IMG/VR virus record: IMGVR_UViG_3300025096_001146
Span: 1 to 23,290 of that record
Strand: one strand, 5' to 3'
Origin: a virus
Length of the DNA: 23,290 nucleotides
In this document: one piece after another, positions 8,737 to 19,926 of the stretch
Layout of the letters: each line of letters opens with the position of its first letter
How positions within the stretch are numbered: position 1 is the stretch's first letter
Program-made: the position numbers and the translations under genes
Notes under the pieces: model-generated
Databases searched by the model: none
What the model was told of the DNA's origin: nothing
Seen by the model: the letters and a program-made list of their open reading frames with translations, nothing else

Positions 8737-8916
8737 ATGTTATTATACACCGAAGAACAACTAGAAAGTGCTTACGATATTTATCGTACTCATCAAGCCA
8801 GACAAGATTTAAGCTTTATGAGCTTAGAACATTTTAGATTATTCTATGAGCAGTTGGTTGAAGAAGCCTTAACAGGTGGTGACGTAGAGGAGAATTATGG
8901 TGGGCTTCCCATTTGA
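8737..8916 (+). CDS. small conserved-looking phage protein (59 aa), probably leaderless mRNA
   Basis: 59 aa beginning MLLYTEEQLESAYDIYRTHQ. It is acidic, helical and soluble, with aromatic residues spaced along a predicted helix (Y4, Y13, Y16, F27, F33, F36, Y37). There is no Shine-Dalgarno sequence before the ATG, and the -10 box at 8725-8730 places the transcription start at or next to the ATG, so translation is probably leaderless. Its last 20 bases overlap the next gene, whose ribosome-binding site (8886-8892) lies inside it. Very similar short proteins with the pattern LYTEEQL...IYR.HQ.RQ...M.LE.FR..FE occur in marine phages (from memory); their function is unknown to me. A consensus promoter and first place in the unit suggest early or high expression. 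Confidence 0.75.
   Translation: MLLYTEEQLESAYDIYRTHQARQDLSFMSLEHFRLFYEQLVEEALTGGDVEENYGGLPI
8886..8892 (+). promoter_or_regulatory. strong ribosome-binding site for the holin-like gene
   Basis: AGAGGAG lies 4 bases upstream of ATG 8897, inside the C-terminal codons of the 59-aa ORF. It fixes the start of the three-helix protein and implies translational coupling of the two overlapping genes. Confidence 0.75.
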
Positions 8917-9334
8917 GATAATTACGATGCTGGGTTCAACCTTGCTGAGTAGTTTGCTAAGTATTTGGTCGCAAAGCAGAAAAGCAAAAGCTGACGAACA
9001 ACAGCTTCTAATAACTAGAGGTGAGTTTCAACTGCAAGCCATAGAAGCTGCAAGAAATGTTAAAGACAAAGGCTTTACATTTACTAGAAGAGTGATTGCG
9101 TTGACTTCGATCTTTGCAATTATTGTGTTGCCTAAGTTGGTTGCTGTGTATGCACCAGAAGTTTCAGTGACTGTGGGTTATACTAATTGGATGCCCGGAT
9201 TTTGGTTCTTTAAAGAAGGAAGAGAAGTTTTTGAATGGATTACTTTTCAAGGTTTGGTCATAACTCAGTTAGATACCAATTTAGTATCGGCTATAATTGG
9301 TATGTACTTTGGTGGTAGTCTAGTTAAACGATAA
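8897..9334 (+). CDS. three-helix membrane protein, holin candidate
   Basis: 145 aa with three apparent hydrophobic segments: about residues 4-23 (FEIITMLGSTLLSSLLSIW), 66-86 (VIALTSIFAIIVLPKLVAVY) and 115-142 (WITFQGLVI...AIIGMYFGGSLV). Helices 1 and 2 are linked by a charged stretch (QSRKAKADEQQLL...ARNVKDKG). It ends in a basic SLVKR tail. Size and topology match the three-helix holin family described for gene-transfer-agent and related phages (Holin_3TMs, Pfam PF11351), which is my best match, though not proven. A holin would permeabilise the inner membrane at lysis. No endolysin is recognisable beside it. It belongs to the 8737-9518 transcription unit started by the consensus promoter. 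Confidence 0.65.
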   Translation: MVGFPFEIITMLGSTLLSSLLSIWSQSRKAKADEQQLLITRGEFQLQAIEAARNVKDKGFTFTRRVIALTSIFAIIVLPKLVAVYAPEVSVTVGYTNWMPGFWFFKEGREVFEWITFQGLVITQLDTNLVSAIIGMYFGGSLVKR

Positions 9335-9642: not shown

Positions 9643-9654
9643 CTTGCTTATAAT

Positions 9655-9660
9655 AAGGAG
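9655..9660 (+). promoter_or_regulatory. ribosome-binding site fixing the Hsp20 start
   Basis: AAGGAG is followed by a 7-base spacer to ATG 9668. The in-frame TTG at 9644 lies upstream of this site and is not the start. Confidence 0.8.
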
Positions 9661-9667
9661 AGAAAAA

Positions 9668-10102
9668 ATGGTCAATAAATATGGCTTAGTGGATTTTAGA
9701 GATCCAATATTTTCATCGTTGTTTGTGGGCTTTGATGGTCTTTTTGAAAACATGACACAGATGTCACAAGGTTCAAAAAGTCTTCCGAGTTATCCACCTT
9801 ATAACGTGATACAAGACGGAGACGATTACGTAATTGAAATCGCTCTAGCAGGCATCAATAAAAAAGATATTGATATTACCCTGCAAGAAAATACTTTAAC
9901 AGTTTCTTATCAATCTTCAGAAGAAGAAGAGTCCGATAAAAAATTGTACAAAGGAATTGCACAAAGATCTTTTAAAAGACAATTCAATTTGTCTGAAGAT
10001 ATTGAGGTCGAAGGTGCGAACTTTGTTAATGGTATGTTGAATATCTTTTTACAAAGGATTATTCCTGAAGAAAAGAAACCAAAGACAATAAAGATTAAAT
10101 AA
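9668..10102 (+). CDS. hsp20: small heat-shock protein, Hsp20/alpha-crystallin family
   Basis: 144 aa from the ATG with the strong Shine-Dalgarno; the size is usual for an IbpA-type sHSP. The N-terminal arm is Phe-rich (FSSLFVGFDGLFENM, about residues 15-29). The alpha-crystallin domain spans ~44-134, opening with PPYNVIQDGDDYVIEIALAG and including the G-x-L strand (GMLNIFLQR, 122-130) typical of the family. The tail ends IKIK, giving the I-x-I motif (141-143) used for oligomer assembly. sHSPs hold unfolding proteins in the cytoplasm without ATP. Phage-encoded Hsp20 is known from cyanophages. Here it is the first gene of the operon that encodes the curli-like proteins, so it may buffer aggregation-prone substrates before export; that link is inference. 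The next gene begins one base after the stop. Confidence 0.93.
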   Translation: MVNKYGLVDFRDPIFSSLFVGFDGLFENMTQMSQGSKSLPSYPPYNVIQDGDDYVIEIALAGINKKDIDITLQENTLTVSYQSSEEEESDKKLYKGIAQRSFKRQFNLSEDIEVEGANFVNGMLNIFLQRIIPEEKKPKTIKIK

Positions 10103-10103
10103 A

Positions 10104-10256
10104 ATGGAATATGATTTTGAAAGAAAGTGGACAAGAGTAAATAAGGAATATCTTACGACCTTGGTGGATGATCACCAAAGGTATCGTTTTATGTTTCGTC
10201 TTCTCTTTGCTTACTTAATTCTTGATCTATTAATACATTTTGATTTATTGTCATAA
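10104..10256 (+). CDS. small membrane peptide (50 aa), unknown
   Basis: 50 aa, ATG 10104, one base after the Hsp20 stop; its TAA overlaps the next ATG (TAATG), a sign of translational coupling. The N-terminal 28 residues are charged and soluble (MEYDFERKWTRVNKEYL...), followed by one hydrophobic helix (about 29-48, FMFRLLFAYLILDLLIHFDL). The topology is probably N-in with a short C-terminus at the periplasmic face. The mRNA has an imperfect hairpin at 10159-10181 (TTGGTG/CACCAA core, loop GATGAT) inside the coding region. I do not recognise the family. Position before two other small membrane proteins and csgF/csgG suggests a membrane accessory of the cassette or a lysis factor. Confidence 0.6.
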   Translation: MEYDFERKWTRVNKEYLTTLVDDHQRYRFMFRLLFAYLILDLLIHFDLLS

Positions 10257-10552
10257 TGGCTGAAGCATTTAAGTTAATTGCAGAACTAGGATTACCGATA
10301 GCTGGTGGTTTAATAATGGCTTTCTTTATATTCCTAGTAATGAAACAATTAATGGAGAGCCTTGTAAACGAAATAAAAACAATACAAGGCATTTCTAAGA
10401 TGCTTATTACTAGAGCAGCTACCATGAATAATGATATTATTCGTATAGATACGAGTGTGTCTTCAGCACTTAACTTGCCTCCTGACTTAGACAGAATTGC
10501 AAGAGCAGAGAACTTTGTAGAGGATGGTAAGATTGATGCTCGAAGAGATTAA
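10256..10552 (+). CDS. small membrane/coiled-coil protein A (paralogue of next gene)
   Basis: 98 aa. ATG 10256 overlaps the previous stop. One membrane helix spans ~12-33 (PIAGGLIMAFFIFLVMKQLM), followed by a helical, probably coiled-coil stretch to ~73 with heptad-like Ile/Leu/Met spacing. The tail is polar and charged (FVEDGKIDARRD). It aligns without large gaps to the next protein: the hydrophobic N-terminus matches in register, and the coil ends in similar motifs (NNDIIRIDTSVSSALNL against DQDMIRLQQKVNTALSL). The pair therefore arose by tandem duplication. Possible roles are holin-like or a membrane adaptor to the CsgF/CsgG pore. No established function is known to me. Confidence 0.7.
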   Translation: MAEAFKLIAELGLPIAGGLIMAFFIFLVMKQLMESLVNEIKTIQGISKMLITRAATMNNDIIRIDTSVSSALNLPPDLDRIARAENFVEDGKIDARRD

Positions 10553-10554
10553 AT

Positions 10555-10809
10555 ATGGACATTGTACAGCTCGTATCGGAATTTGGTTTCACTACTGTCA
10601 TGGTAGTTGGTCTAGGTTATTTTGTTTATTTTGTATGGCACACAATTACTACGATTATCAAACCTGCTGTTAAAGACATGAGCAAAACAATCATTCGATT
10701 GACTGATCAACTGAGACTGCTTGATCAAGATATGATAAGATTACAACAAAAAGTAAATACTGCTCTGAGTTTAAAAGAGCAAGACGAACAAAGTGAGCAG
10801 AAAAATTAG
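10555..10809 (+). CDS. small membrane/coiled-coil protein B (paralogue of previous gene)
   Basis: 84 aa, starting two bases after the previous stop. The N-terminal membrane helix is about residues 12-33 (FTTVMVVGLGYFVYFVWHTI), followed by an amphipathic helix with regular hydrophobic spacing to ~72 and a Glu/Gln/Lys-rich tail. It is clearly related to the preceding 98-aa protein (shared D-I/M-I-R-I/L and A-L-N/S-L motifs at the coil end). The last 17 bases overlap the csgF start, so its translation may feed csgF. Two related membrane proteins could form a hetero-oligomer. The pair may be lysis proteins that were already there before the curli genes, or inner-membrane partners of the export system; the sequence does not decide. 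Confidence 0.7.
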   Translation: MDIVQLVSEFGFTTVMVVGLGYFVYFVWHTITTIIKPAVKDMSKTIIRLTDQLRLLDQDMIRLQQKVNTALSLKEQDEQSEQKN

Positions 10810-11287
10810 TATAAATTTAGCATCTTTTATTACAAGTATATTAATAATGTACTTGTGGAGTTCTGCAGTATTCGCAGATGAAATAGTTCATCAGTTTAAG
10901 AGTCCTAGTTTTAATGGTGTCGCAACTTCTTCACACTATTTAACCATTGATGAACAAGAAAAAACAAGAAGAGATGCAATCGCAGAAGATGTTGAGAATG
11001 CTCTTAAAGAAGCAGAGCGTGAGGCAGAGAATACAACACTTGCAAAATTTTTAAGAAACTTAGAATCAAGAATCTACTCTCAGCTTTCAAGAGACATTGC
11101 AGAATCTTTGTTTGATTCTGAAAAAGGTGGCACAGGCGGAGAGTTTGAATTAGAAGGTAGCACGATACGTTTTGTTAATGACGGAATTAATATAACGCTC
11201 ATTGTTATTGATGAAAACGGAACGATAACTGAGATTATTATTCCAGTAGGTATATTTGGTATATGTTCAGACGAGTGTGGAATATAA
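10793..11287 (+). CDS. csgF: curli assembly factor CsgF homologue
   Basis: 164 aa from GTG 10793. A signal peptide spans residues 1-28 (FITSILIMYLWSSAVFA, cleavage before DE). The mature protein opens DEIVHQFKSPSFNG, which aligns in register with the start of E. coli CsgF (Q-F-R-N-P-N-F-G-G), the part that plugs into the CsgG channel. The middle is helical (EQEKTRRDAIAEDVENAL...). The C-terminal part (about 117-151, FELEGSTIRFVNDGINITLI then ENGTITEIIIP) matches the CsgF beta-rich end. Identity is well supported (family PF10614). Oddities: mature position 17, Asn in E. coli where it forms the second channel constriction, is Thr here. An extra C-terminal GICSDECGI adds two Cys. The gene overlaps csgG by 25 bases. 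CsgF normally secretes through CsgG and couples it to fibre nucleation at the cell surface. Confidence 0.88.
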   Translation: MSRKISINLASFITSILIMYLWSSAVFADEIVHQFKSPSFNGVATSSHYLTIDEQEKTRRDAIAEDVENALKEAEREAENTTLAKFLRNLESRIYSQLSRDIAESLFDSEKGGTGGEFELEGSTIRFVNDGINITLIVIDENGTITEIIIPVGIFGICSDECGI

Positions 11288-12102
11288 AAACATTAATAGT
11301 ATTGTTGCCTTTTGTCTTACAAGGGTGCGCAAGTTTTGCACCTGTAGGACACACAGGATGTGATTCAATATTTGAGTGTGTTGAGAAACCAGCAATTGTA
11401 AGACCAACACAAGATAAATTAATTAACTTACCTGCTCCTAATCAGAAAGCTGTTGTAGCTGTTTACTCTTTTAAAGACTTAACAGGACAAAGAAAGAGTT
11501 CGCAGAAGATGGCACTGTTTAGTACAGCCGTAACTCAAGGAGCTGACAATTATCTTATTGACGCTTTAAGAAGTGCAGGCAAAGGCAGGTGGTTTGTTGT
11601 AGTAGAGCGATCTGGATTAGACGGCTTAACCAGAGAACGACAACTGATTAAGAATACTAGGCAAACTTACAACGGAGAAAAAGGAAATACTTTAAAACCT
11701 TTACTCTTTGCAGGGTTAATTATTGAAGGAGGGATCGTTCAATACGATACAAATATTGGAACAGGTGGAAATGGAGCAAGGTATTTAGGTATAGGATCTA
11801 ATAATCAATGGAGACAAGACGAGATTACAGTATCATTAAGAGCTGTTCTTGTTCAAACAGGTGAGGTTATGATCAATACAATGGTTAGTAAAACAATATT
11901 AAGCGCAGGAGTAAACCGTGATGTGTTCCGTTTTATTGAAATGGGAACTGAGTTGGTTGAGTTAGAAACAGGCTATAGTCAGAACGAAGCAATGGGTTAT
12001 GCGACAAGATCTGCAATTGAAGAAGCTGTTTATTCTTTGATACAACAAGGTTTAAAACAACAATTATGGGATTTTAATTATGAAGAAGAAATTATTAATT
12101 AG
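11263..12102 (+). CDS. csgG: curli secretion pore lipoprotein CsgG homologue
   Basis: 279 aa, close to E. coli CsgG (277 aa precursor). A lipoprotein signal ends with LQGC (lipid-anchored Cys22). A Cys-containing insert (GHTGCDSIFECV) follows, then the conserved body: LPAPNQKAVVAVYSFKDLTG (56-75), FSTAV (86-90), RWFVVVERSGLDGL, the transmembrane hairpin region with GGNGARYLGIGSNNQW, SKTILSAGV and VFRFIEM, ending LIQQGLKQQLWDF. These match PF03783. CsgG forms a nonameric outer-membrane channel that exports curlins. The loop lining the constriction reads KSSQKMALF (78-86), where E. coli has KPYPASNF: the final Phe is kept, but the Tyr and Asn are lost and the loop is one residue longer. GTG 11275 is an alternative start that would shorten only the signal peptide. 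It overlaps csgF and the following curlin gene. Confidence 0.95.
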   Translation: MFRRVWNIKTLIVLLPFVLQGCASFAPVGHTGCDSIFECVEKPAIVRPTQDKLINLPAPNQKAVVAVYSFKDLTGQRKSSQKMALFSTAVTQGADNYLIDALRSAGKGRWFVVVERSGLDGLTRERQLIKNTRQTYNGEKGNTLKPLLFAGLIIEGGIVQYDTNIGTGGNGARYLGIGSNNQWRQDEITVSLRAVLVQTGEVMINTMVSKTILSAGVNRDVFRFIEMGTELVELETGYSQNEAMGYATRSAIEEAVYSLIQQGLKQQLWDFNYEEEIIN

Positions 12103-12769
12103 CTTTATAGCAATGTTTGCTTTTTCTGTTGTCTATGCAGGAAACAACGACATTTATATAACACAATCAGGAACGGGTTTGACTATGAACATAGATCAAA
12201 TTGGTGACACAAACAAAGTCGGTACATCACAGACTAGAGCAACCTTTACTGGAACCTCTATGACTGTGGACATTGACCAAGTAGGAGACAGCAACACGAT
12301 GGCTGCTTCAGTAGCGCAAGGTAATAGCACCTCATTTACTGCATCAACGACAGGAGATAGTAATACTACTACATTGGCATTGGGTGCAAGCGGAGACGTT
12401 GCCAATACAGACTTTGATTATGCTGCTACTGGTGACTCAAACACAGTGACATTCACACAAGGTGCTGCTGCAACCGCAACTGCTGGTAATCAAGACATTG
12501 TGATTGCAGGCACATCAAATGATTTAAATGCCACTTGTGAGGTGGTTGGTTGTATCAACAATTGGGATGTGGACGGAGATTCAAATGACATCGACACCAC
12601 TCAAACAGGAAACTCAGATCATTCTATCACAGCCGACATAACAGGAAGCACAAACAACATAGACATAGATCAAACCAACAGCACTGGTAGTGTATCAGAT
12701 GTTGTGGTTCTAACAGCAACAACGAGCAACGGCACTATAGACATAGACCAATGCACAAGTGGCTGTTAA
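12080..12769 (+). CDS. secreted curlin-repeat (amyloid-type) protein 1
   Basis: 229 aa. The signal peptide is 1-20 (KKKLLISFIAMFAFSVVYA, cleaved before GN). The mature protein is Gly/Asn/Thr/Ser/Asp-rich with curlin-type Q-x-G-x-x-N units: ITQSGTG (27-33), IDQIGDTN (38-45), IDQVGDSN (65-72), degenerate TTGDSN and ATGDSN (90-95, 116-121), TQTGNSD (~174), IDQTNSTG (196-203) and IDQCTSGC (222-229). Curlin repeats stack as a beta-solenoid amyloid in CsgA/CsgB. Repeats are irregularly spaced and decay in the middle, so it could be a nucleator or minor subunit. Four Cys form two close pairs (153/158 and 225/229), unusual for curlins. There is no Trp except W162. It follows csgG with a 23-base overlap, so it is a likely CsgG substrate. 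DNA is noticeably richer in G+C than the virion genes. Confidence 0.85.
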   Translation: MKKKLLISFIAMFAFSVVYAGNNDIYITQSGTGLTMNIDQIGDTNKVGTSQTRATFTGTSMTVDIDQVGDSNTMAASVAQGNSTSFTASTTGDSNTTTLALGASGDVANTDFDYAATGDSNTVTFTQGAAATATAGNQDIVIAGTSNDLNATCEVVGCINNWDVDGDSNDIDTTQTGNSDHSITADITGSTNNIDIDQTNSTGSVSDVVVLTATTSNGTIDIDQCTSGC

Positions 12770-13848
12770 TATTATTTCTTTTTATACCTAACGTATATTC
12801 TGAAATAGGAGAGATCTCAGAGTTGCGTGGCAACGGAGAGATTCTAAGACAATCAGAAGGAGATAAGTTACTTGCAGAGCTGGCACTGGATATTCTTTCT
12901 TATGATGATATACGGACAGGCAATGGTCGTATTGCTGTCAGGTTTGTCGATGACTCTGTTATAAAGCTTACAGAACATTCAAAGATTGTCGTTGACGAAT
13001 ACATTTTTGATCCTGATCCATCTAAAAGTAAGCTTGCTCTTAACATGGCTAGTGGTACAGCACGTTTTATCACTGGTGCATTAGGAAAGATAGATAAAAA
13101 AAACATTAAGATACGTACTCCTAGTGCTACAGTAGCTGTCAGAGGAACAGACTTTACGACAACAGTAGATGAACTAGGCAGGTCTTTAGTAATTCTTTTG
13201 CCGAATCCTGACGGCACTTCTTCAGGAGAAATCACAGTAGAGACGATGGCAGGCATAGAGGTTTTAAATAAACCTTATCAAGCCACGATGGTTAGTATGT
13301 CTGAAAGTCCTCCGACTAAGCCAGTGACGTTGGTTAATATGTCATTAAACTTTATAGACAATCTTTTGATAGTCAACCCACCAGACGAAGTTCAGCAAGC
13401 AGTAGATGAACAAGCACAGAGTTCAAACAACGTGCTTGACGTAGACTTATTAGAAGAAAATGATTTAGATGACAACGACCTTGATAAAGATGAGCTAGAA
13501 GAAGAGACAACTAGACTAGACATTGACTTCTTAGCAGTAGACTTCTTACAAGATTTATTAGAAATAATGGAAACGACTGCTTCTGGTAAGAAAGAAAAAG
13601 GAACAGACGGAGAGTTAGACGGAGTACAACTAGAAGGGATCATCCCTAACTTTGATCAAAATGCACAAGTCTATAGTTTTGTAGACGGAGAAATTTTAAC
13701 ACTGGTTAGACAAGTAGAAAACACAATTGATTTAGAACTTGATAAAGGTGGAGCATATAACATACAAATACTTTCTGCTGGAAAGTTAATAAACATAACA
13801 GTAAACGGAGGCGGAGAAAATGAGATCGTTATTAATCAGTCTGATTAG
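12751..13848 (+). CDS. secreted FecR-domain protein with acidic region and curlin-like C-terminus
   Basis: 365 aa. The signal peptide is ~1-17 (KWLLILFLFIPNVYS, cleaved before EI). A FecR-type beta domain (PF04773) spans ~50-145: RTGNGRIAVRFVDDSVIKL, a SGTARFITG strand, then the hallmark RTPSATVAVRGTDF (122-135). Next come ~60 ordinary residues, a strongly acidic Asp/Glu/Leu stretch (~229-262), and a C-terminal beta segment ending EIVINQSD. It lacks the cytoplasmic anti-sigma part of classical FecR and has no membrane helix after the signal, so it is a periplasmic or secreted domain rather than a FecIR regulator. In bacteria, FecR-domain genes are often neighbours of CHASE2 cyclase genes (from memory). 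The INQSD end is shared with the second curlin protein and resembles a curlin half-repeat. It overlaps the curlin genes on both sides (19 and 29 bases). Confidence 0.85.
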   Translation: MHKWLLILFLFIPNVYSEIGEISELRGNGEILRQSEGDKLLAELALDILSYDDIRTGNGRIAVRFVDDSVIKLTEHSKIVVDEYIFDPDPSKSKLALNMASGTARFITGALGKIDKKNIKIRTPSATVAVRGTDFTTTVDELGRSLVILLPNPDGTSSGEITVETMAGIEVLNKPYQATMVSMSESPPTKPVTLVNMSLNFIDNLLIVNPPDEVQQAVDEQAQSSNNVLDVDLLEENDLDDNDLDKDELEEETTRLDIDFLAVDFLQDLLEIMETTASGKKEKGTDGELDGVQLEGIIPNFDQNAQVYSFVDGEILTLVRQVENTIDLELDKGGAYNIQILSAGKLINITVNGGGENEIVINQSD

Positions 13849-14533
13849 TCTGTCGTCTTTTATTATCTATGCTGGAGACAACAGCGTTGAAATAAGAACC
13901 AAAGGCAGCGGTTCTTTGATACACATTGACCAAGTAGGAACAAGCAATACTACTAGAGTTTGGTGTGGTTTATCTGAAGGCACTTACACAACACACAGTT
14001 GTAACAATGCAGAAATAGATATAGATCAGAACGGAACAAGCAACACAGCAAAAGCCTACAGCCAAGTTGCTACACACACAGGCAATGAATACAAGATTGA
14101 TCAAGACGGTAATGACAACATTGGTTACATAGATGCCGATGATGATGGCAGCGACATGGACATTGTGCAGGACGGCAACAACAACGATGCTGAAATCTAT
14201 ATGCAAGGCGACAACAACATATATGAAATCACACAGACGGGTGATGACAAGGAGGGAGAGATCAGAGCATTCGGTGATAACTCAAACTTCTCAATCAATC
14301 AATCAGGCAGTGGCGAACACTATGCCAAGATATATGCAAGCACAGCAGCCGACAACAATGATGCAAGCATAACTCAGACAGGTAGTGGCGACCATTATAT
14401 GAAGTTGAACTTCTATACCGATGATTACGATGTGACGGCAACACAATCAGGAGCAACCAACAAATCAATCACAGTCAACTACAACTGCACCACCAATTGC
14501 AATAAAACATTGACGATTAATCAAAGTGATTAG
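13820..14533 (+). CDS. secreted curlin-repeat (amyloid-type) protein 2
   Basis: 237 aa. The start is fixed by the strong GGAGGCGGAG at 13807-13816, inside the FecR-domain gene. The signal peptide is 1-18 (RSLLISLISLSSFIIYA, before GD). Curlin-type units are more numerous than in protein 1: IDQVGTSN (36-43), IDQNGTSN (68-75), IDQDGNDN (93-100), IVQDGNNN (115-122), a YMQGDNN variant (127-133), ITQTGDDK (137-144), INQSGSGE (159-166), ITQTGSGD (184-191), ATQSGATN (207-214) and terminal INQSD. Spacing is about 22-32 residues, near the curlin repeat length. It is strongly acidic with few Lys/Arg. Cys are paired (49/61 and 223/227); the terminal C-x3-C pair also occurs in protein 1. A major fibre subunit exported by the CsgG homologue is the likely role (inferred). 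Confidence 0.87.
   Translation: MRSLLISLISLSSFIIYAGDNSVEIRTKGSGSLIHIDQVGTSNTTRVWCGLSEGTYTTHSCNNAEIDIDQNGTSNTAKAYSQVATHTGNEYKIDQDGNDNIGYIDADDDGSDMDIVQDGNNNDAEIYMQGDNNIYEITQTGDDKEGEIRAFGDNSNFSINQSGSGEHYAKIYASTAADNNDASITQTGSGDHYMKLNFYTDDYDVTATQSGATNKSITVNYNCTTNCNKTLTINQSD
13831..13848 (+). repeat. C-terminal coding repeat, copy 1 (INQSD-stop)
   Basis: 18 bases at the end of the FecR-domain gene match 15 of 18 bases at 14516-14533, the end of curlin gene 2. Both encode I-N-Q-S-D and stop with TAG. The three differences lie together in the Gln-Ser codons, so the peptide is conserved while its DNA has drifted. Confidence 0.7.
14516..14533 (+). repeat. C-terminal coding repeat, copy 2 (INQSD-stop)
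   Basis: End of curlin gene 2, the partner of 13831-13848. The GTG start of the cyclase gene (14526) lies inside this repeat, giving GTGATTAG with the stop codon just downstream of the start. Confidence 0.7.
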
Positions 14534-16337
14534 AATTAAACAATTTCTTGTTCTGTTGGTTTTATTGGTAATGCCTTTGGTGTTCCAACCAACCTTTTAC
14601 CAAGTACTAAAACTTAAGACATTTGATGCACTTGTCGAAGAAAGACAACCTTCAAATTATTTTTCAATATTAAACATAACTGAGAAAGACGTTGAGACAG
14701 AAGGCGGTTATCCTTTTCCTAGAAAAAGATTGGCAGAAATACAAAATGAACTTATCGATCAAGGCGCGGTTGGTGTTGGTTGGGTTATATCCTTTCCTCA
14801 ACCAGATCGTTTTGATGGCGATATGGCATTCGCAGAAAGCCTTGCATCTGCTCCAAGCATCTTAGCAACCTTTGAAAATGAGAACGGAGTATATCCACTC
14901 ACTACAGGTACTGTTATATTGGGTGAAGATCACGGAGGTTTTCAAGCCAAAGGAGTAATAGAGAATGTTCCGCTACTAAGAGAAGCAGCCTATCAAGGAA
15001 TTGCTGTAGCACCCACAGACGTAGATCAATTGGTTAGGCGAATGCCTTTGTTACTGAGGACTCCTGATGGTTGGGTGTCTGCATACGGCACAGAGGTTCT
15101 AAAAGTATTAGCAGGTGCGGATACTTATGTCATTAAAACAAACGAGAATGGCATCCAAGAAGTCAGAGTCAAAGGAATACCTGCTGTACCTACAGATAGT
15201 CTAGGTCGTAAATGGATCAGTTGGGTAGATACTCCAGAGTTTTCTCTTGATGACATAAAACAAACAGACTTAATTAAAGATCGCTTTGTATTTGTAGGTG
15301 TCACAGCTTTAGGAGTGATGCCTCAGATTGCAACACCTGTAGGATTATTGGAACCTCACAAGATACAAGCAGCTTTATCTGAATCAATCTTAATTCAAGA
15401 CAGTCCTTCTATTCCTGACTTCGCAGTTTCAATAGAACTTCTGATGTTTATTGTCGGTGTTTCTTTTGTGTGGCTTGTTATAATAATGGCAGGTATAAAC
15501 ATAGGATTAGTGTTGGCTTCGATGATGCTTGCTTTTACAATAGCAATGGAGTTTCATTTTGTAAGAACACAAGGAATGTTGATAGACTTTACGTGGTCTT
15601 TCGTTGCTCAGTTTATTGCAGCAAGTGTTGCATTCTACATAAGATTCAGAGAACAATACAAACTACGACAACAAATTAAGAAACAATTTGAACACTATCT
15701 TGATCCTCGTCAAGTAAAACAACTACAAAAGAATCCAAACCTTTTAAAGTTAGGCGGAGAAAAAAGATATGCAACGTATCTGTTTACAGATGTTAGAGGA
15801 TTCACCTCAATGTCTGAGTCATTGCCACCAGAAGATGTTACATACATTATGAATAAAGCCTTAACTGCACAGCAAAAAGCAGTACAGAAACACGAAGGCA
15901 TGGTCGATAAATACATAGGCGATGCAATGATGGCTATATTCAATGCGCCTTTGGATCAAGAGGATCACGAAACAAAAGCAGTTAGCTGTGCCTTGGATAT
16001 AATAAAAAATATGGAAGAGTTAAACAAAGAGCTTGAGCAAAAAGAACTGCCATCAATTGCCATAGGTATCGGGATTAATAGTGGCGAAGCTGTGATAGGA
16101 AACATGGGAAGTGAGTCTCGTTTTGACTACACTGCTATAGGAGATGCCGTCAATACAGGAGCAAGACTAGAATCAGCCACAAAGGAAGCAGGTGTCGATC
16201 TTCTTATAGGAGAAACAACAGCTATGTTTAATAAGCACCAAGGCTTTGAGTTCGTAGATGAGATCTCAGTCAAAGGAAAAGAAGAACCTTTGAAAGTATT
16301 TACAGTTTTTAGAAATCAAATGCTTCCTAGTAGGTAG
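14526..16337 (+). CDS. CHASE2-domain class III adenylate cyclase, membrane-bound
   Basis: 603 aa from GTG 14526 (8-base overlap with the curlin gene). The N-terminal membrane helix is ~5-22. A CHASE2 extracytoplasmic sensor spans ~30-298 (YPFPRKRLAEIQNELIDQGA, DRFVFVGVTALG and PHKIQAAL are typical). Three helices follow (~299-320, 324-345, 355-372), then the standard linker HYLDPRQVKQLQKNPNLLKLG and the cyclase domain ~413-597. All expected catalytic residues are present: metal-binding D422 (FTDVRGFT) and D466 (IGDAMMAIF), adenine-selecting K462 and D534, and transition-state N543 and R547 (NTGARLES). ATP to cAMP is therefore predicted. The sensor faces the periplasm, where the FecR protein would be. 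An intact, full-length bacterial-type cyclase is unusual in a phage. It ends the cassette; 49 bases later the convergent minus-strand module ends. The partner sensing signal is unknown. Confidence 0.94.
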   Translation: MIRIKQFLVLLVLLVMPLVFQPTFYQVLKLKTFDALVEERQPSNYFSILNITEKDVETEGGYPFPRKRLAEIQNELIDQGAVGVGWVISFPQPDRFDGDMAFAESLASAPSILATFENENGVYPLTTGTVILGEDHGGFQAKGVIENVPLLREAAYQGIAVAPTDVDQLVRRMPLLLRTPDGWVSAYGTEVLKVLAGADTYVIKTNENGIQEVRVKGIPAVPTDSLGRKWISWVDTPEFSLDDIKQTDLIKDRFVFVGVTALGVMPQIATPVGLLEPHKIQAALSESILIQDSPSIPDFAVSIELLMFIVGVSFVWLVIIMAGINIGLVLASMMLAFTIAMEFHFVRTQGMLIDFTWSFVAQFIAASVAFYIRFREQYKLRQQIKKQFEHYLDPRQVKQLQKNPNLLKLGGEKRYATYLFTDVRGFTSMSESLPPEDVTYIMNKALTAQQKAVQKHEGMVDKYIGDAMMAIFNAPLDQEDHETKAVSCALDIIKNMEELNKELEQKELPSIAIGIGINSGEAVIGNMGSESRFDYTAIGDAVNTGARLESATKEAGVDLLIGETTAMFNKHQGFEFVDEISVKGKEEPLKVFTVFRNQMLPSR

Positions 16338-16861: not shown

Positions 16862-18781
16862 TTATACTATCTCACACGCACCTGCACTACAGGCTAGTTC
16901 TTTAGTGTTCTCAGTCATGTCTTCCTTTTCGTATTCAGTGATTAGATCCCAATTAATTTCGTGAACAGTCTTATTCATCCACTCTTTGTATTCATCTTCT
17001 GTGATCTCTTGGTAAGGTGCTTGTTGGTAGGAATGATCTGCAAAGGGCAGAAAAGAAACTCCTGAGATCTTATCAAAGTTATCCCATACCCATGCACCAA
17101 CCTTTAACCACTCAGCTTCTCTAACTGAGATGGTGGCTGATGGTTTGTGTTCACACCAATGATCTTGATACATCTTCCAGATTTCTAAATGTTCTATGGC
17201 TGATAGATCTATTCTTGTTAAAGATTTACTAGGAGACTTAATAGGAAAGTAAAACACTAAGGTATGTTCAGGCTTAGTAATATCGTCTTCGTGATACACT
17301 CCTTGATCAACCATGAGCTGTGCAATAGGATCTTTCTTATCAGCACGAACAGTTCTTATATAGTATTCGCTGTGTCTTGTATGAATACCTGATGCACTGT
17401 CCACTAACTGACTCACAGTACCGCTTGGTTTAACACAAGTAATAGCAACAGATTGTTTGATTCCTAAATTAGCTGCCCAACCTTCGTTCATTATAACGGC
17501 TGCATTTTTCAAAACTTCTAATCTTTTAGGTAAATTATTTCCTTCGATCAATCTTTTATTATCCATGATGCCTGTAAGAGACACACCCAAGAGTGCTTCT
17601 TCCTCTGTGTTGTCTTTCCAAGCTTTTGTCAAGTATCTAAAGTTAGTTAAGGTTGCTTGAAACGTACCAAGAATAGTAGCGAGTTCTACTTTTTCTTGGA
17701 GAGTTTTCCAGGTATCATCAGGCCTAACAACAACTTCTGTTAGGTTACAGAACTGTTTGTTGCGTAGTATGATTTCACTGCAAGGATTACAACCAAAGTC
17801 TTTGTACTCTTCTCGTCTTCCATTCTTAGCAGCTTGTTCTTCAGCAGCTTGACGATTAAAGATACCACGCTCACCACTTTTAGAATCATACAGCGATAAC
17901 CATTCGCGCATGAATGCTCCCATCTCTGCTGAGTCTGTATAGGCTACTGAGTTATTGGACAATGCTCGATGCTGGCTGTGTTCCCACCAAGAACCTGACT
18001 TAGCATTGCGCATACGCTCGTCTGAGAGGTTGCTGAGTGAGATTAAAGCGCTACGTCTAACACCACCCACTACAACAACTTCTGCGATCTTACACATCAA
18101 ATCATGACAATCAATTGATACGAGTTTCTTTTGGTTCTTACTGAGTGCATCTTTAAAAATGTTTATAGTAAAATGCATGAGATCATCCAAAGGTGCTGGA
18201 CCACTGGCACGACCACCAAAGGTTTTAAGTCTTGCGCCTTGAGGTCGAATGTTACTAAGATCCCACTGAGGAATGTGTCCTGCATAAAGCAAAGACATCA
18301 GTTCTTTGTATGCTTTTGCCCATCCAATCTTTGAGTCAGCTACTTTGATGATAGTATCTGTCTGATGTAGTTCTTCAGGTAGATCAGGAAGTTTATTAAC
18401 GTACTGTCGTTCTACGCTGAATCCAACACCTGTGCCACACATAAGTATGTAAAGTGTTTCATCAAATGAACGAACAGTATCAACAGCAACATAACTACAG
18501 TTGAATCCTGCTACGTTGTCTCGTTCTAAAGCTGTGCCTGCTGACATTAAGGCTCGCATACTTGGCATTATATCCAAGTTAAGCACAGCTTGTTCTAACT
18601 GTGGTCGCATGTCTGCTATATCTGTATCGTTATTCTTCTTTAAATGCTCTTGCATAAAGTCAAAGTATCTTGCGACTGTCTCTTGCCAAGTCTCTCGTCT
18701 TCCTGTATCTTCGTTCCATCTTGCGTACCTGCTAAGATGTATGAACTCTTGATAGGTTGTAGGTAGTTTAGTTTGTTCCAC
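16862..18781 (-). CDS. nrdJ: adenosylcobalamin-dependent ribonucleotide reductase (class II, monomeric)
   Basis: 639 aa from GTG 18781, which has AGGAG 10 bases upstream and a 14-base overlap with the previous gene. It makes deoxynucleotides for phage DNA synthesis by reducing ribonucleoside triphosphates with B12. Active-site residues are visible: Cys95 (GFNCSYV), Cys334 and Glu336 (CNPCSEI) and Cys345 (QFCNL); the 11-residue Cys334-Cys345 spacing equals Cys408-Cys419 of the Lactobacillus enzyme. VVGGVRRSALISLS and VKPSGTVSQLVDSASGIH are further family motifs. The C-terminal ACSAGACEIV supplies the Cys pair that shuttles electrons. No NrdB, NrdD or intein was seen. Class II enzymes are frequent in marine phages, and use of this one requires B12 in the infected cell. 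It lies in the same operon as polymerase and nucleases. Confidence 0.95.
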   Translation of the reverse strand: MEQTKLPTTYQEFIHLSRYARWNEDTGRRETWQETVARYFDFMQEHLKKNNDTDIADMRPQLEQAVLNLDIMPSMRALMSAGTALERDNVAGFNCSYVAVDTVRSFDETLYILMCGTGVGFSVERQYVNKLPDLPEELHQTDTIIKVADSKIGWAKAYKELMSLLYAGHIPQWDLSNIRPQGARLKTFGGRASGPAPLDDLMHFTINIFKDALSKNQKKLVSIDCHDLMCKIAEVVVVGGVRRSALISLSNLSDERMRNAKSGSWWEHSQHRALSNNSVAYTDSAEMGAFMREWLSLYDSKSGERGIFNRQAAEEQAAKNGRREEYKDFGCNPCSEIILRNKQFCNLTEVVVRPDDTWKTLQEKVELATILGTFQATLTNFRYLTKAWKDNTEEEALLGVSLTGIMDNKRLIEGNNLPKRLEVLKNAAVIMNEGWAANLGIKQSVAITCVKPSGTVSQLVDSASGIHTRHSEYYIRTVRADKKDPIAQLMVDQGVYHEDDITKPEHTLVFYFPIKSPSKSLTRIDLSAIEHLEIWKMYQDHWCEHKPSATISVREAEWLKVGAWVWDNFDKISGVSFLPFADHSYQQAPYQEITEDEYKEWMNKTVHEINWDLITEYEKEDMTENTKELACSAGACEIV

Positions 18782-19106: not shown

Positions 19107-19505
19107 TTATTTGTCCTCTTTTTTTGTGTATTTCTTTTTAACTCTTTCGCTAATAGGTACGGGATTTCCATATTCATCAATACGAACAAACTTCATATCG
19201 GTATTAACTACAATCTCTTGAGAGTCTGTTCTTACGTTGTGTCTTCTTGCTTCGATGTTGAGTGTAATACTAGACCTACCTACTTTCTTTACTTTTCCCC
19301 AAATCTCTATAAGTTGTCCTGATTTAACAGGTCTTCTGAACTCCATCTTAGCGACCAACACTGTAACAACTCTAGGAGAATTACAAATCCTAGAAGCCAT
19401 TGACGCGCCTGCTTCGTCTAGCCAAGACATCATGTGACCACCAAACAGATTATCGTGATAACCTAAGTCACCTTCTTTACACATCTTTGTACTAATCAGT
19501 TGCAT
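19107..19505 (-). CDS. acyl-CoA thioesterase, hotdog fold (YciA-like)
   Basis: 132 aa from ATG 19505, preceded by GGAAAG. A longer in-frame start at 19571 would overlap the endonuclease gene by 80 bases and add 22 residues not typical of the family. Signature: HDNLFGGHMMSWLDEAG (17-33 from this start), with Asn19 and Asp30 at the catalytic positions of YciA-type enzymes. Then come VTVLVAKMEFRRPVKSGQLI (47-66) and the strand VGRSSITLNIEARR. It should hydrolyse acyl-CoAs to free fatty acid and CoA in the cytoplasm; substrate length is unknown. A Lys-rich tail follows (VKKKYTKKEDK). A metabolic gene inside a replication operon is notable; it could alter host lipid or CoA pools. Fold assignment is strong, physiological role is not. 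Confidence 0.9.
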   Translation of the reverse strand: MQLISTKMCKEGDLGYHDNLFGGHMMSWLDEAGASMASRICNSPRVVTVLVAKMEFRRPVKSGQLIEIWGKVKKVGRSSITLNIEARRHNVRTDSQEIVVNTDMKFVRIDEYGNPVPISERVKKKYTKKEDK

Positions 19506-19926
19506 CTTTCCACTCTTTAGGTAAACTCTCTGCGCTGTACCATCTGAATCCATTCTTTGATGCCCACTCACCGTGGCTTCTTTTTGTGCCGTCTCTTCTC
19601 ATCTTTGCATTAGGCATGGGTGCTGATGGATTAGAAAATAGAAATACTAATTCACAATCGTCTGGCAGTATTTCTTTGATCCATTTGTATTTAGTGTATT
19701 CAGCATAATCCCAAAACCTTCCTTTTGCTTCTAAGTATATTACTTTATCTTCTAAGATACGAATGAAATCAGGATGATATTTGTGTGGTATCGAATACTC
19801 TATGATTCCTTTGTGGTGTTCCCAGTGTTGTAGTTCTTCTTGGTGAAGGTCGTACTCCCATTTAGAATCGTATCCTTTAGGTAATCCTTTTTCAGTAGGT
19901 CTTTTCTTTCTTGGTTTTCTTTTCAT
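19492..19926 (-). CDS. T7-type endonuclease I (Holliday junction resolvase)
   Basis: 144 aa from ATG 19926, which lies one base after the previous stop codon. A TTG at 19947 is also in frame, but the ATG gives active-site numbering almost equal to T7: Glu24, Asp53, Glu66 and Lys68 here against Glu20, Asp55, Glu65 and Lys67. Motifs: SKWEYDL, HKYHPDF and VIYLEAKGRFWDY, then LVFLFSNPSAP and HGEWASKNGFRWYSAESLPK. It resolves branched DNA before packaging and helps break down host DNA. The N-terminus is strongly basic (MKRKPRKKRP), for DNA contact. It overlaps the thioesterase start by 14 bases. Identification as family PF05367 is well supported. Confidence 0.92.
   Translation of the reverse strand: MKRKPRKKRPTEKGLPKGYDSKWEYDLHQEELQHWEHHKGIIEYSIPHKYHPDFIRILEDKVIYLEAKGRFWDYAEYTKYKWIKEILPDDCELVFLFSNPSAPMPNAKMRRDGTKRSHGEWASKNGFRWYSAESLPKEWKDATD

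Follow-up and report, generated by a model that had tools for sequence, protein, structure and literature searches.

The window analysed here, a 23,290-base virus record (IMGVR_UViG_3300025096_001146), carries an operon of eight genes that starts at 10256 and ends at 16337. It encodes the curli proteins CsgF and CsgG, two curlin-repeat proteins, a FecR-domain protein, a CHASE2-sensor adenylate cyclase and two small proteins, s1 and s2. From its sequence, we consider it probable, with moderate confidence, that the operon enables an infected cell to build amyloid fibres at its surface, and that these fibres are adhesive in purpose. The curlins would leave the cell via CsgG/CsgF and then polymerise.

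An operon of eight adjoining genes

Successive genes between 10256 and 16337 are separated by a 2-nucleotide (nt) gap or overlap by 8-29 nt (Table 1). A reading made from the sequence alone, before any database search, had proposed a six-gene set at 10793-16337. Pfam profile searches recover all six named genes in their overlapping order, with PF07012 matching both curlins, the first only just; the start of the unit had to be moved upstream, where s1 and s2 belong to it. The parts that define curli (type VIII) secretion, namely the CsgG pore, CsgF and curlin-repeat substrates, are all recognised, the first curlin being borderline, in agreement with the proposal of an export set with its own predicted substrates. 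CsgF as a single sequence gave no match among solved structures.

The gene order is kept, as far as the contigs extend, in 46 of 46 close viral loci, far beyond chance, and the cultured phages HTVC008M and Melnitz have the eight genes in the window's order. In a survey of 285 loci, collected via CsgG and with some contigs counted twice, the order csgF-csgG-curlin-fecR-(curlin)-cyclase holds almost everywhere, and most loci have s1 and/or s2 upstream. The ratio of nonsynonymous to synonymous substitution rates (dN/dS) is 0.03-0.15 in all eight genes wherever dS is measurable, which indicates that all eight are under purifying selection and argues against decay or passenger status. A scan for promoters and terminators gave no signal above shuffled sequences.

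The locus is a genuine phage locus. Phage flanks on both sides of the cassette recur in four other contigs (L002-L005), which excludes a chimeric assembly.

Table 1. Genes of the operon, flanking phage genes and head-bearing second curlins of related phages (aa, amino acids)
Feature	Position	Strand	Evidence
s1, 98 aa, paralogue of s2, with a single transmembrane stretch at the N-terminus followed by a long polar helical region	10256..10552	+	phrog_18771 7e-23
s2, 84 aa, paralogue of s1 with like layout, overlaps csgF by 17 nt	10555..10809	+	phrog_18771 2e-25; alignment
CsgF, 164 aa, signal peptide-like start, predicted extracellular partner of the CsgG pore	10793..11287	+	PF10614 4.2e-12; phrog_35372 8e-40
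CsgG, 279 aa, predicted lipoprotein outer-membrane secretion pore	11263..12102	+	PF03783 7.4e-54; E. coli CsgG structures 1e-45
First curlin-repeat protein, 229 aa	12080..12769	+	PF07012 3.4e-4, 20.9 bits against a cut-off of 20.7
FecR-domain protein, predicted exported, 365 aa	12751..13848	+	PF04773 2.4e-13; model and fold match; tail statistics
Second curlin-repeat protein, 237 aa	13820..14533	+	PF07012 1.3e-12; NCBIfam CsgA 8e-18; model; profile matches to 8c50 and 8enq
CHASE2-sensor class III adenylate cyclase (predicted), 603 aa	14526..16337	+	PF05226 3.7e-29; PF00211 1.4e-21; solved adenylate cyclases 2e-35
Hsp20 chaperone, phage gene, upstream flank, outside cassette	9644..10102	+	PF00011 1.5e-17; phrog_432; flank kept in L002-L004
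Class II (B12-dependent) ribonucleotide reductase, phage gene, downstream flank, outside cassette	16862..18781	-	phrog_367 3e-188; PF21995 8e-10; flank kept in L002-L005
Head-bearing second curlins of pelagimyophages	L048:8552-9874; L150:9619-10947; L122:9678-11168; L113:9643-11088

Curlins, exchangeable heads and the FecR tail

The profile of the second curlin family matches solved curlin fibres (8c50, E 5e-22; 8enq, E 2e-6), and its structural model shows a run of short paired strands at a predicted local distance difference test score (pLDDT) of 86. The first curlin matches 8c50 more weakly (E 0.0096), and its Q, G and N repeat positions are invariant from phage to Caulobacteraceae. In four loci (L234, L238, L243 and L245), a secreted protein of 680-800 amino acids lies between fecR and the cyclase gene in place of the second curlin; in some of them its C-terminus reads like an outer-membrane barrel.

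In HTVC008M and its relatives, the second curlin begins with a PA14 domain at its N-terminus (E 2.7e-6 and 2.6e-8), and the second curlins of two other pelagimyophage loci (L122 and L113) have different N-terminal heads with no significant Pfam match. Exchangeable heads on a fibre subunit suggest binding. Because the copies of related myophages carry such heads, the second curlin may be the subunit that displays whatever the fibre binds. The likely benefit would be adhesion, by which sibling cells or surfaces could be kept close to the burst, or else a coating of the cell against other phages. That the fibres are solely a coat stopping the adsorption of other phages (superinfection exclusion), and no adhesin, was suggested in PMC9599517 and is compatible with the presence of fibre machinery; the PA14-like heads of the relatives speak for binding instead, and we regard the coat as rather unlikely.

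The N-terminus of the FecR-domain protein reads as a signal peptide. In the model, the FecR domain is followed by a linker of ~75 residues with low confidence (about 223-298) and a C-terminal beta segment, and the protein ends in a curlin-like strand, NEIVINQSD. The corresponding strand pattern, which was written after the tails had been seen and was counted in related sequences that are not independent, occurs in 161 of 162 distinct complete FecR C-termini and in 198 of 294 curlins, as compared with 3 of 812 other cassette proteins and 2 of 753 background open reading frames (ORFs). A profile of the FecR tail, run against all other ORFs, yields 30 matches at E<=1, all of them curlins. For the C-terminal region as a whole, the structural matches are no better than middling and show a common arrangement.

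Structure comparison finds the fold of the FecR domain to be similar to PupR-type signalling domains (Z 15.4) and, at a lower score, to a cell-surface anchoring domain (5ix9, Z 6.8). The first likeness, together with the lack of csgE in the cassette, fits an alternative raised in PMC9599517, in which the pore would be an ungated channel importing cofactors or iron during infection and FecR an iron regulator. A FecR anti-sigma regulator combines a cytoplasmic anti-sigma domain with a partner sigma factor. Among 30 FecR proteins, no anti-sigma domain was found, the FecR domain being the only one found consistently, and there is no sigma factor in the operon. Import would also give no account of the curlins or of the curlin-like FecR tail, and we hold it to be very improbable.

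We infer that the FecR-domain protein is associated with the fibre, and a role as anchor or nucleator fits its sequence better than that of an iron regulator. The FecR domain would stay at the cell while the tail joins the fibre, and the protein would fill the place of the missing CsgB, perhaps also that of CsgE. A more specific version can be offered only tentatively: the FecR domain could act as a periplasmic plug or retention device and the tail nucleate fibres outside, replacing both CsgB and CsgE, which together with the heads of the second curlins would make the operon a swappable-tip adhesin cassette moving between unrelated SAR11 and OM43 phages.

Several observations weigh against adhesive surface fibres. 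A Foldseek search with the model of the second curlin returned no significant match, the first curlin barely exceeds its Pfam cut-off, and the second curlin of the window itself lacks an additional head. Of the 30 FecR proteins, PF07012 matches just one (E 0.039), which makes the tail a partial repeat at best. Pfam shows no CsgE homologue in the operon. Finally, no fibre has been seen: Melnitz carries the cassette, and PMC9004378 reports an absence of clumping with it.

The same study discusses a lysis role for Melnitz, with CsgG/CsgF as a timed lysis pore or pinholin; on such a reading s1 and s2 would be holin-like and the curlins secondary. The sequence-only reading had also listed a pore used at lysis. 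The Melnitz study argues for a reconfigured pore and saw no clumping, and s1 and s2 are small membrane proteins, s2 with weak holin/spanin-like PHROG matches (E 0.003-0.02). However, two conserved curlins, a FecR protein whose tail is curlin-like and a cyclase are all maintained by purifying selection, and a lysis pore would not account for them. Some relatives do without the cassette (HTVC115P, for example, which has two annotated lysozymes), and 2 of 10 cassette-bearing contigs contain an endolysin homologue, at about E 1e-16. Whereas PMC9004378 describes csgA/csgB as missing, the GenBank record of Melnitz (L049, MZ577097) annotates two curlin-repeat proteins, the FecR protein and the cyclase. 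We judge the lysis pore to be improbable, and less likely than surface fibres that would clump cells or block superinfection, which the sequence-only reading had listed as well.

Small membrane proteins, cyclase and presumed host

s1 and s2 sit upstream of csgF in viral loci and appear to be specific to the cassette: queried alone, they match in only 6 of 50,697 phage records, all of them HTVC008M or Melnitz and all with csgG. Neither has a Pfam or NCBIfam match or a kinase domain. A search of 289 alphaproteobacterial genomes, which had no positive control, found none, and on this result we rejected s1 and s2 as bacterial genes. PMC9599517 names one or two genes ahead of csgF as histidine kinases. 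Provided that these are the same genes, s1 and s2 cannot be histidine kinases, because they are proteins of 98 and 84 residues without kinase domains. The difference is probably a matter of naming, the comparison resting on the names in that paper and not on its sequences.

The last gene encodes a predicted class III adenylate cyclase with a CHASE2 sensor. It keeps the residues D422 and D466, K462, T536, N543 and R547, whose roles in metal binding, adenine binding and transition-state stabilisation are assigned by analogy with the family. The sequence-only reading's term signalling enzyme is right for the cyclase's sequence, but the presumed host group almost lacks domains that bind cyclic AMP. 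The host is presumed to be SAR11, judging from the nearest cultured relatives, and we sampled the host group as the 61 genomes nearest to a Pelagibacter metagenome-assembled genome (MAG). A cyclic nucleotide monophosphate (cNMP)-binding domain occurs in two of them and is lacking in 59; one of the two, G004, is a large bin in which phage DNA is present as well.

In E. coli, cyclic AMP (cAMP) with CRP controls csgD (cited in PMC9599517). An analogous circuit, in which the cyclase drives the system via cAMP and a CRP-type regulator, is consistent with the retained catalytic residues. The near absence of cNMP-binding domains from the Pelagibacter group, and of any regulator from the operon, argues against it, and we consider it highly improbable. 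Together with s1 and s2, the cyclase would probably tune the fibre system by a route that is unlikely to be cAMP-CRP.

Among the same 61 genomes, csgF is found only in G003 and G004, on contigs that carry phage-type cassettes with s1/s2, and class III cyclases over the cut-off are likewise confined to these two cassettes. A host-encoded curli system completed by the phage was rejected accordingly. Phage-type cassettes with s1/s2 are also seen in MAGs labelled Synechococcus, Flavobacteriaceae and Candidatus Pelagibacter (L054, L055, L056, L057 and L063); these are probably phage contigs within bins.

A bacterial counterpart is observed in two Caulobacteraceae MAGs (L052 and L053). These have the same six gene types in the order csgF-csgG-curlin-curlin-fecR-cyclase, and their FecR ends in a strand reading ...INVTQD; unlike in the window, both curlins precede fecR and s1/s2 are absent. 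The surroundings of the operon in L052 read as chromosomal. This contradicts the abstract of PMC9599517, where FecR and the cyclase are stated not to lie within bacterial curli operons. None of 13 other alphaproteobacterial csgF neighbourhoods (L088-L100) has a fecR or cyclase gene of the cassette kind beside csgF, so the FecR/cyclase variant is rare in such neighbourhoods.

Relation to described systems and carrier lineage

The sequence-only reading had taken the set for an undescribed phage system. The kind of system is in fact already known, since PMC9599517 described the module in 2022 and the GenBank records of HTVC008M and Melnitz hold the cassette. CsgF/CsgG clusters had been reported in pelagimyophages in 2020 (PMC7029224). 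In the later study, the whole module, FecR, second curlin and cyclase included, was present both in podophages of the HTVC023P type and in SAR11 myophages, occurred across 65 ocean stations and was expressed in metatranscriptomes. The window shares its order CsgF, CsgG, curlin, FecR, second curlin, cyclase, with one or two small genes ahead. It differs in its carrier, which is related to HTVC103P/115P, and in that the genes before csgF encode 84-98 amino acids and no kinase domain, in place of the one or two histidine kinases of the described module.

HTVC008M and Melnitz share the order of all eight genes including s1 and s2, at a CsgG identity of about 45-48%; the PA14 head of the HTVC008M second curlin has no equivalent in the window. 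With E. coli csgBAC/csgDEFG, the window shares CsgF, CsgG and curlin repeats, but no CsgC, CsgD or CsgE is seen, and FecR, the cyclase, s1 and s2 are added. The 1.5 kb record L051 (OR851715), labelled Salmonella phage S.Kent 1-2-1, encodes a CsgG 41% identical to the window's; it is a low-coverage fragment of doubtful origin.

Upstream of the cassette, the window has a plus-strand module with a long protein matching a PHROG annotated as endolysin and virion structural proteins, then the Hsp20 gene. A membrane protein at 8897-9334, conserved beside Hsp20 in HTVC103P, is present in many pelagiphages, several times inside or beside a peptidase M15 annotation. Downstream lies a convergent replication module with the class II ribonucleotide reductase, an endonuclease, an exonuclease and DNA polymerase A, in which a 4HBT thioesterase-family protein is also encoded (19107-19571, minus strand).

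The DNA polymerase of the window is 53% identical to that of HTVC115P over its full length. Its identity to HTVC027P, of the HTVC023P type, is 27% over 211 residues only, as against the cut-off of at least 45% similarity in DNA polymerase A that PMC9599517 applies to this type; by polymerase likeness to HTVC023P/027P the window lies outside it. Other flanking genes of the window and of L002-L005 match HTVC103P/115P. These matches place the carrier in a further phage lineage, related to HTVC103P/115P and distinct from the HTVC023P type. We found no earlier report of the cassette in such carriers, in a literature check that was not full.

Most of the contigs L006-L047 that have flanking matches resemble HTVC027P; some of these HTVC027P-like contigs also share single genes with HTVC103P and so are mosaic. 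In the cyclase tree, the group of the window is nested among HTVC027P-like cassettes. The set, of 20 rows, is well supported, and within it the two carrier types are intermixed, which requires at least two changes. The tree therefore indicates that the cassette moved between phage lineages.

Of what is added to the published picture, most useful are the tail of the FecR protein, the heads of the second curlins, the recognition of eight genes as the unit, the counterpart in bacteria and the missing cAMP receptor. How phages of the most abundant ocean bacteria profit from carrying curli genes has been a standing question since 2020. This vague question is made specific by the FecR tail, by the exchangeable heads and by the host group's lack of a cAMP receptor, and finding the cassette in a further lineage of phages shows active trading.

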